Of a stretch of DNA of 64,000 bases, positions 10,589 through 47,674 are shown piece after piece. Source of the stretch: Thiotrichaceae bacterium (GTDB taxonomy: Bacteria; Pseudomonadota; Gammaproteobacteria; Beggiatoales; Beggiatoaceae); NCBI GenBank assembly GCA_028688145.1, contig JAQTYU010000002.1, positions 434,001-498,000 of the forward strand, written 5' to 3'. The notes beneath the pieces were generated by a model. That model ran no database searches and was not told the origin of the DNA. It worked only from the letters and a program-made list of their open reading frames with translations. The translations under genes were made by a program, and so were the position numbers. Numbering within the stretch: the stretch's first letter is position 1; each line of letters starts with the position of its first letter.

Positions 10589-11278
10589 ATGAAAACTGCC
10601 TGCATTAAATCTTTTGAATTAGGGAATATGGATAATTTCGTGCATTTAATTTATGACACTGCCAGCAAACGGGCGGCGGTAGTCGATCCTGCATGGGATG
10701 TTTCAGATATTATCAACTTTGTGAAAGCACAGGGTTTGACGCTGACGGATATTTTATTGACGCACAGCCATTACGACCATATCAATGGCTTATCGATGAT
10801 TCGTGATGCCTATCCCGAAGCAAAAATTCATTTGTCCACAGCAGAAGCTTCCTTTTGGGGAAATGCGCCAAAAACTGCGATTTTGCATCAGGATAACGAT
10901 GTAATTCAGTTAGGGGAAACTGCGATTAAAGTATTATTCACGCCAGGACATACGCCAGGTTCGGTTTGTTATTATTTTGATGACAAGGTAGTCACTGGGG
11001 ACAGCTTGTTTATTTATGGTTGCGGTCGCTGTGATTTGCCCGGCGGCGATGCGGCAGAATTATTTCACAGCTTAAAAGATTTGGTAGCGCGGGTGTCGCC
11101 AGACACTTTGGTATACAGCGGGCATGATTACGGCGTGGAAAAAGTCACCACTTTAGCGGCACAGGTGGCAGGCAATCCCTTTTTACACTGTGCCACCAGT
11201 GCGGCATTTGTGCACTATCGCATGATAGAACACGATCAAACTCGTCGCTCACCGTTTACGCCCGTATTACGCGCTTAA
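10589..11278 (+). CDS. Metallo-beta-lactamase-fold hydrolase (glyoxalase II-like)
   Basis: A 229-residue zinc hydrolase. Metal ligands THSHYDHINGL (HxHxDH) near residue 57, TPGHTPGS near 126, GDSLFIYGCGRCD near 143 and YSGHDYG near 180 follow the hydroxyacylglutathione hydrolase / persulfide dioxygenase layout. The bridging Asp and third His are present, so it should be active. In a sulfur oxidiser a persulfide dioxygenase role is attractive, but the GRCDLPGGD loop is shared by both subgroups and does not decide it. GAGG precedes the ATG by 8 bases. Monocistronic. Confidence 0.85.
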   Translation: MKTACIKSFELGNMDNFVHLIYDTASKRAAVVDPAWDVSDIINFVKAQGLTLTDILLTHSHYDHINGLSMIRDAYPEAKIHLSTAEASFWGNAPKTAILHQDNDVIQLGETAIKVLFTPGHTPGSVCYYFDDKVVTGDSLFIYGCGRCDLPGGDAAELFHSLKDLVARVSPDTLVYSGHDYGVEKVTTLAAQVAGNPFLHCATSAAFVHYRMIEHDQTRRSPFTPVLRA

Positions 11279-46049: not shown

Positions 46050-46487
46050 TTATTTCTGTGCAGGAGCAGCCTGTTGTTGTGGAGCTTGAGGGGCTTGTTG
46101 AGGCGCGCCGTAAGGATAGCCACCGACAGGAGGATAACCACCATAACCGCCAACGGGAGGATACCCGTAGCCACCGACAGGAGGATAACCATAACCGCCA
46201 ACGGGAGGATAATAGCCGCCGTAGTAAGGATTACCGTATCCATACCCGTAACCTTGCCCTTGTCCTTGACCATAGCCTTGACCGCGTCCACCGCCTGAGA
46301 AATTCATGTTGAAGTCGCCATTTCCCCAGCCGTTGCCGTCAAAAGGACCCCAACTATTGTTATAGCCATTGTTATAACCACCAGGACCACCCCAACCAGG
46401 CATACCCCACCACGCATTAGCGGATGCAGTAAAAGCAGCGGTTCCTAACACTGCGGAAATTGCTAAAGCCTTAAATAATTTTTTCAT
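46050..46487 (-). CDS. Sulfur globule protein-like Gly/Tyr/Pro-rich secreted protein
   Basis: A 145-residue exported protein. Signal peptide [20 protein letters not shown] then ASANA, followed by [15 protein letters not shown], a [19 protein letters not shown] block that closely resembles the Sgp family of purple sulfur bacteria, then Tyr/Gly runs, four tandem YPPVGGY units (about 92-122) and a Pro/Gln/Ala tail. Sulfur globule proteins coat periplasmic sulfur deposits in sulfur oxidisers. GAGG precedes the ATG and a strong terminator follows. The YPPVGGY part differs from the classic proteins. Family assignment good, role inferred. Confidence 0.8.
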
Positions 46488-46735
46488 GATCGCCTCTTCA
46501 ACCAGAATGATGATAATTACGCTTAACTACACCCACCTTAAGACATATCGATGATGCGCAATAATACTCGCAAGCTATATAAACTAGCAGTAATATTATT
46601 AATCTCTAATATAATCGATTAAATTCACCTTAACAAGATGTGAGTTAGCGTATTTTCTTCTTTAATAGAACTTCTAGACTTTTCTATTGGAATAAGTCAC
46701 CTTTACGTTCATCAATTCCATGCTCAGAGATTATC

Positions 46736-47056
46736 ATGAAAATTTCACATCGTTTGTTCCTAATTCTTCTAGGCTTAGTGTTTTTTGGCGTATCCGCTGC
46801 ACAAAGTCCGAATGCACCTTTCAATTTTGAAGGTAAAATTGTTTATTTAGAGATGGAAGGGGGATTTTATGGAATTGTTAGTAGCGAGGGGCAAAAATAT
46901 TTAGCCACTAATTTGCCACGCATGTTACAACAAACTAATTTAAGAGTGCGTGGTAAAGCGGTGTTACAAGCCAATACTTTGGGGATTCATCAGTGGGGGG
47001 AATATATTCAATTGCTAGACATCAGCCCACGCTGCCCGCTACAACGCAGTGAGTAA
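46736..47056 (+). CDS. Small exported protein, unknown
   Basis: A 106-residue protein with signal peptide (MKISHRLFLILLGLVFFGVS then AAQS) and a compact beta-rich remainder: NFEGKIVYLEMEGGFYGIVS, GQKYLATNLP and LRVRGKAVLQANTLGIHQWG, an OB-like or NirD-like strand pattern. No known family is recognised. Monocistronic, convergent with the Cache-domain gene. Confidence 0.7.
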   Translation: MKISHRLFLILLGLVFFGVSAAQSPNAPFNFEGKIVYLEMEGGFYGIVSSEGQKYLATNLPRMLQQTNLRVRGKAVLQANTLGIHQWGEYIQLLDISPRCPLQRSE

Positions 47057-47137: not shown

Positions 47138-47674
47138 TTATTTAGACAACAACACGTTTAGGGTTTCAACCGTGGTATTGTCCCCATAAATCCCCGCGCC
47201 AACTTGGTATTTTGAATCTTGCGCTTGCAAGTTATACGAAAACTTCGGAGAACCTTCGGTATCGCCGGGTTTTGGCCACGAATATTTCACCCAACCGCCG
47301 TCAGGTTCGAGCGCGGCACGACACATCTCTTCAAAAAATAAATTGCCCGCATAATCACGCAAGGACATAATCGGCTTTCCAATCAAGCTTTCTTTAATTG
47401 GATGTGCACTCATCTTGTCCGCTTCGCAATTATATACAAAAATATAGGTATCTTTCCAAACCCAAGGATTTCCCTCAATTTCATTAAACTGCGCTAAATC
47501 CGCATCAGTTTTTAAAACTTCAGCAGCGGCTCTAACTTTAGCAATCACTTCTTCAGGGGTCGCATGTCCTAAGGGAATAATTTGAATCTTATGGGTGTCT
47601 GGTTGTTCTGGCGCAGCCCATAGCGTGGGGCTTAGTAATGAACCCACAATGACACAAAATGCAATTTTTTTCAT
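47138..47674 (-). CDS. Periplasmic single Cache-domain protein
   Basis: A 178-residue exported protein: signal peptide MKKIAFCVIVGSLLSPTLWA, then a small-molecule sensor-like Cache domain with VWKDTYIFVYNCEADKMSAH, LIGKPIMSLRDYAGNLFFEE and GGWVKYSWPKPGDTEGSPKF. These match the sCache_2-type pattern where a CDG-like loop is followed by the WVxYxWP strand. Alone, it has no output domain, so it is a soluble ligand-binding protein that may work with a separate receptor. The ligand is unknown. Confidence 0.82.
   Translation of the reverse strand: MKKIAFCVIVGSLLSPTLWAAPEQPDTHKIQIIPLGHATPEEVIAKVRAAAEVLKTDADLAQFNEIEGNPWVWKDTYIFVYNCEADKMSAHPIKESLIGKPIMSLRDYAGNLFFEEMCRAALEPDGGWVKYSWPKPGDTEGSPKFSYNLQAQDSKYQVGAGIYGDNTTVETLNVLLSK

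Follow-up and report, generated by a model that had tools for sequence, protein, structure and literature searches.

The open reading frame (ORF) at 46050-46487 (-) of the window, by which we mean the whole stretch of 64,000 nucleotides analyzed here (contig JAQTYU010000002.1 of a Thiotrichaceae bacterium placed in Beggiatoaceae), raises the question of whether its product is a coat protein of stored sulfur, and whether the YPPVGGY repeats in this product set it apart from the proteins of that kind already known. Taken as a whole, the best explanation, which we consider very probable, is that the ORF codes for the one sulfur globule protein (Sgp) detected in the genome, an exported coat of elemental sulfur (S0), in a member of Beggiatoaceae that has genes for sulfide and thiosulfate oxidation, with transcription that is probably controlled through a palindrome. 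Sgp is of a known kind with a lineage-specific repeat, and the less expected part, which is worth following, is the promoter element.

The sgp gene and its relatives

Our analysis demonstrated that the ORF is a real gene, encoding an exported Gly/Tyr/Pro-rich protein, and that each of the parts named in a preliminary description of this DNA, i.e., a signal peptide, a conserved 11-residue block, four YPPVGGY repeats and a Gln/Ala/Pro tail, is present within its 145 residues (Table 1). Read by eye, the N terminus has an n-region (MKKLFK), then a hydrophobic core and a cleavage-like site, and a cleavable signal peptide for export is predicted from this. The mature protein, counted from AWWG on, has 121 residues (G 32%, Y 15%, P 14%, Q 9%, N 7%) and no Cys, i.e., the small, Gly/Tyr/Pro/Asn-rich mature part expected of proteins of the Pfam sulphur globule protein family (PF17228). 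None of 200 shuffles was as stable as the hairpin that follows the stop codon, and this hairpin is not among the entries of a consensus terminator-type scan. With a GAGG ahead of the gene and a strong hairpin after its stop codon, sgp is probably transcribed as a single gene.

Table 1. Features of the sgp locus, with positions in the window
Feature	Position	Strand	Basis or remark
sgp, encoding the sulfur globule protein of 145 aa (precursor mass 14.9 kDa)	46050..46487	-	PF17228 match and family relatives
Predicted signal peptide, aa 1-25 (cleavage between ANA and WW)	46413..46487	-	read by eye; conserved in relatives
11-residue block, aa 59-69	46281..46313	-	conserved in relatives
YPPVGGY repeat 1, aa 93-99, DNA version A	46191..46211	-	exact
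YPPVGGY repeat 2, aa 101-107, DNA version B	46167..46187	-	exact
YPPVGGY repeat 3, aa 109-115, DNA version A	46143..46163	-	exact
YPPVGGY repeat 4, aa 118-124, DNA version B	46116..46136	-	exact
Gln/Ala/Pro-rich tail, aa 128-145 (18 residues)	46053..46106	-	sequence
GAGG, ribosome-binding-like, ahead of ATG	46493..46496	-	read from sequence
Terminator-like hairpin directly 3' of stop codon	45999..46026	-	z -5.4
Candidate promoter element ATATTAGAGATTAATAATAT	46593..46612	-	1 mismatch to ATATTAG-N6-CTAATAT, 2 to TTAGNNNTTGCTAATAT
Candidate -10 (TATAGC)	46574..46579	-	17 bp downstream of -35-like TTAATA inside the element; by position only
Divergent neighbor, 106-aa small exported protein	46736..47056	+	adjoins sgp also in four relatives

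Relatives of Sgp are widespread in the family, for which we surveyed 42 genomes from 25 genera of Beggiatoaceae. A protein search (E <= 1e-3) identified relatives in 29 of the 42 genomes, the window's own included, and PF17228 (E <= 0.01) matched in 18, with the window's own genome not among these matches. Together with the gene in G018 and four genes found via the promoter element described below, the protein search brings the total to 34 of 42; a weak family match in G029, where there is no Sgp ORF, was left out of this count and of the set of upstream regions. Across the class, 55 of 369 sampled genomes contain a PF17228 match (E <= 1e-4), and a scan of public genome contigs identified four relatives outside the family. 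The PF17228 search of the window's genome detected no second sgp.

A palindromic element in sgp promoters

Comparison of the divergent regions upstream of sgp demonstrated that a palindrome, ATATTAG-N6-CTAATAT, which overlaps a -35-like box, is common to the sgp promoters of the family. Exact TTAG-N6-CTAA is present in 21 of the 40 upstream regions in our set (36 from the family and 4 from outside it), against an expectation of 0.5 and a maximum of 5 in 300 Markov resamplings, and 28 of the 40 match TTAGNNNTTGCTAA with two or fewer mismatches, the other 12 having three or more. The pattern was derived from sgp upstream regions, and the presence of sgp among its matches is therefore no independent test.

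Four observations are independent of this derivation, namely the count of the exact core, the share of its sites that precede sgp, the share among sites with a -10-like box, and the related sites outside the family. The exact core, TTAGNNNTTGCTAATAT, occurs at 46 sites in the 42 genomes, versus one site for the reversed control, and 23 of these sites, at 21 genes, precede an Sgp ORF. In G007, G020, G027 and G033 the core revealed sgp genes absent from the results of both protein searches. A -10-like box lies at the right distance from 24 of the 46 sites, and 21 of these precede sgp; the other three lie on a truncated contig (G032), in an ORF-free region (G029) and before a gene for an exported, coiled-coil-like protein (G035). 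Only two of the 22 sites without such a box (G002 and G030) are still located before sgp, and the remaining 20 look like chance or unrelated matches.

Several individual sites merit a description of their own. The coiled-coil-like protein preceded by an exact element in G035 (L120) has a GYG-rich part and is a candidate further globule protein. In G016 (L105), an exact element, with no -10 at the usual distance, precedes an exported Met/Gly-rich repeat protein, also a candidate globule protein. At L114 (G029) and L117 (G032), the element and a good -10 are present with no sgp after them, and a AACTACTCAG string lies downstream, as if a repeat had been inserted.

The window's genome contains no exact TTAGNNNTTGCTAATAT site. 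We call ATATTAGAGATTAATAATAT a degenerate copy of the element because of its place and its spacing from the candidate -10, and not because of its score, since chance alone would give 0.31 matches to the palindrome with two or fewer mismatches, and 0.82 matches to the core TTAGNNNTTGCTAATAT with two mismatches, in the window.

Related sites are also present upstream of sgp outside the family, where 29 regions were analyzed (30 loci, with L152 left out). TTAG-N6-CTAATAT is found in 9 of the 29 with one mismatch or fewer (0.13 expected, maximum 2 in 300 resamplings) and in 18 with two or fewer (1.8 expected, maximum 6), and CTAATAT is the commonest 7-mer in these regions (13 of 29, versus 0.8 expected). 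Several of the sites read CTAATATACT, and CTAATAT outside the family may for this reason act as a -10 box and not as an operator. By eye, a CTAATAT-like half-site occurs twice, about 16 bp apart and as a direct repeat, at L146, L149, L158 and L159.

Transcription of sgp is probably controlled through the palindromic element overlapping the -35 box. Going further, we regard it as evenly balanced whether a dedicated regulator reads sgp via ATATTAG-N6-CTAATAT throughout Beggiatoaceae, and via related sites in other gammaproteobacterial families, governing a very small globule regulon, with the element a guide to globule genes that escape protein searches. The alternative, that the element is a conserved sigma-70 promoter only and not a regulator site, is possible, if somewhat doubtful. 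It would account for the -35-like TTGCTA within the element, which in TTAGNNNTTGCTAA-type sites tends to be followed 17 bp later by a TATNNT box, and for CTAATATACT, conserved outside the family, which could itself be a -10 box. It also agrees with the predicted sgpD promoter of Allochromatium vinosum, TTGATA-N13-TTATATACT, which is the nearest published item in the literature covered here (PMC10386293). However, sigma-70 has no need of the left arm, TTAG, which is complete in 27 of the 28 TTAGNNNTTGCTAA-type sites (selected partly on TTAG), and TAT, which was not used in selection, directly follows the core in all 28. In addition, few exact cores occur across the genomes and every second one precedes sgp, unlike a housekeeping promoter.

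Among the matches listed from the accessible literature on sulfur globule promoters and regulators, Beggiatoa binding sites and CTAATAT, mostly non-subscription articles, we saw no report of the element. Persulfide-responsive regulation by SqrR/BigR/SoxR, as far as the available accounts go, likewise involves a palindrome close to a promoter for sulfur oxidation, a likeness of description and not of compared sites. If confirmed, the element in the sgp promoters would provide a handle on globule gene regulation, would help to locate fast-evolving sgp genes and could serve directly as bait for its regulator.

Assignment to the sulfur globule proteins

Sgp matches PF17228 at 27.5 bits, with a cut-off of 26.7, and two Beggiatoa homologues fall just under this cut-off (25.6 and 26.4 bits). 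In a six-frame search of the genome, the best stretch scored 16.8 bits, or 27.8 with the neighboring stretches of the frame. We take SgpA, SgpB and SgpC of A. vinosum to be the kind of protein that PF17228 describes. The narrow Pfam margin of 0.8 bits, the lack of any NCBIfam match for Sgp and the low complexity of the protein would all be consistent with an exported protein of a general structural or matrix type, rich in Gly, Tyr and Pro, e.g., of a sheath, surface layer or adhesive, that is Sgp-like by composition only. We consider this quite unlikely, as composition-matched shuffles of the mature part placed behind the real signal peptide never matched PF17228 (0 of 5), and as a profile (HMM) built from 37 relatives, with the window's Sgp excluded, scored the whole protein at 111.6 bits and the mature part alone at 62.2 bits, whereas the best of 200 mature shuffles reached -12.8 bits. 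The best of 200 shuffles in which the signal peptide was kept scored 32.4 bits; the signal-peptide end thus adds to the score, yet the mature part is recognized alone. Given the low complexity of Sgp, the case for homology is carried by its signal-peptide end and by the FNMNF block, both of which are conserved, as is the gene neighbor in four relatives. The Pfam match and this homology bear out the identification of the gene in the preliminary description, and Sgp is an ordinary lineage-specific version of the known coat protein of stored sulfur in Beggiatoa-type bacteria.

The comparison with Beggiatoa relatives that had been proposed earlier was made with B. leptomitoformis. We take G006 to be this species, since its persulfide dioxygenase (PDO) and PDB 8ZBD agree at 248 of 248 residues, and on this ground we take the family of 42 genomes to be Beggiatoaceae. 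ALG67575.1 (PMC7356093) is, we infer, the product of the one sgp detected in G006. This protein belongs to the same family as the window's Sgp, is of similar size (about 15 kDa) and has its parts in the same order, i.e., a signal peptide, AWWG, a GDFNM block, Tyr/Gly/Pro repeats and a Pro/Ala tail, and the same divergent neighbor gene lies beside sgp. The two differ in their repeats, which are PYAGYG/APAPY-like in B. leptomitoformis and YPPVGGY in the window's Sgp, and in their promoter element, which is exact in B. leptomitoformis and degenerate in the window.

The YPPVGGY array

The repeat count is above chance, with only 6 of 10,000 shuffles of mature Sgp containing any 7-mer four times. 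At the DNA level, the repeats come in two versions that take turns (A-B-A-B), with 4-5 of 21 bases differing between them, and a 48-bp unit corresponding to two repeats is tandemly duplicated with 93% matches. All of the differences between the two versions fall at third codon positions, so that the peptide itself looks maintained. YPPVGGY is present in none of the 40 other Sgp sequences that we extracted, and in most relatives another Tyr/Gly/Pro repeat occupies the same position, e.g., APYGYG, YPYGGY or PYAGYG. AlphaFold, run on Sgp with an alignment of four sequences, predicted no fold in the array (mean pLDDT 47), as would be expected of a disordered, sticky coat, although the small depth of the alignment may also explain it.

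Because most relatives bear their own repeat at this position, the array appears to be this lineage's version of a variable sticky segment, and to set no new function. The idea raised earlier, that the segment is a distinct structural module, was not supported, and a separate functional module, e.g., for binding or cross-linking, giving an envelope unlike the classical ones, is very unlikely: a peptide kept despite differing third codon positions, and absent from the other 40 sequences, might suggest it, but differing repeats at the same place in relatives are what a fast-changing low-complexity segment would give, and no fold is predicted for the array.

Sulfur metabolism and proposed role

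The genome from which the window comes (3.63 Mb, 99.9% complete) contains soxB (843 bits in a profile search) and the flavin-binding domain of flavocytochrome-c sulfide dehydrogenase (FCSD; 83 bits), which together predict a host able to convert sulfide or thiosulfate to S0. Of nine metallo-beta-lactamase-fold matches over the cut-off in the genome, one is a type I PDO by its PDB neighbors (8ZBD at 316 bits, then 4YSB, with human ETHE1 fourth), and its gene is located outside the window on another contig (C14). The window itself encodes a glyoxalase-II-like protein of this fold at 10589-11278 (+), which is not the PDO.

By contrast with soxB, dsrA is absent: only a 48-bit match inside an 840-aa frame was found, against a cut-off of 393, and the second matches of about 80 bits that accompany dsrA in relatives, which we took as dsrB, are missing. 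The sulfur-gene content proposed earlier as a check on sulfur storage is thus upheld for sox, with the FCSD domain and PDO in addition, but not for dsr, and in terms of the dsrA search the genome lacks the dsrAB genes of rDsr-dependent sulfur storers. Instead, it shows the combination typical of the Beggiatoa-type PDO pathway, i.e., a type I PDO with dsrA absent. Within the family, dsrA exceeds the cut-off in 29 of 42 genomes; among the 30 genomes with a completeness of 90% or more and a contamination of no more than 5%, four (G000, G005, G006 and G015) are without a strong dsrA match, and three of these four contain PDO. PDO as a simple replacement for dsr was rejected, as 7 of the 10 genomes (out of 42) with PDO (E <= 1e-30) also contain dsrA.

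B. leptomitoformis is reported to store sulfur although it has neither rDsr nor sHdr, and oxidation of this sulfur via PDO has been proposed (PMC11507549). As this species makes globules without dsr, the absence of dsrA from the window's genome is no argument against globules, and, with dsrA absent, stored sulfur is probably re-oxidized via PDO. The window presents an Sgp repeat variant in a dsr-free, PDO-bearing genome from a genus other than Beggiatoa, which fits globule storage independent of rDsr.

We propose that the Sec pathway would carry Sgp into the periplasm. There, many copies would bind to one another via Tyr/Gly/Pro contacts and so form a thin and flexible envelope round the S0 that FCSD and a Sox system would produce. 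The sulfur within would later be re-oxidized through the persulfide dioxygenase, and transcription of sgp would be controlled via the palindromic element overlapping the -35 box, degenerate in this genome. By analogy, the role of Sgp on globules would be the same as in A. vinosum and B. leptomitoformis. In A. vinosum, the accessible account places the envelope proteins in the periplasm, on the globules, and describes SgpA, SgpB and SgpC as small exported envelope proteins (PMC10386293), like Sgp by description and not by alignment. A. vinosum has three or four envelope proteins, versus one detected in the window's genome, and according to the same account it uses rDsr, whereas the window's genome is without dsrA. 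In B. leptomitoformis, a strain whose globule protein gene carries a transposon is reported to have no intracellular sulfur storage, and in the other strain this gene is reported to be up tenfold with thiosulfate (PMC7356093).

The divergent neighbor and a nearby gene

The small exported protein encoded divergently from sgp has no Pfam or NCBIfam match and a poor fold model (pLDDT 52). Homologues are located divergent from sgp in G005, G006 and G017, and, after iteration, in G016, i.e., in five genomes including the window's, and this protein may be a partner in the globule system. A tie between the neighbor and the loss of dsr was considered and rejected; four of the five genomes (G000, G005, G006 and G017) are without a strong dsrA match, but G016 contains dsrA. 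Also near sgp, at 47138-47674 (-), is a gene for an exported protein with a single Cache domain, possibly a small-molecule sensor domain without an output domain.
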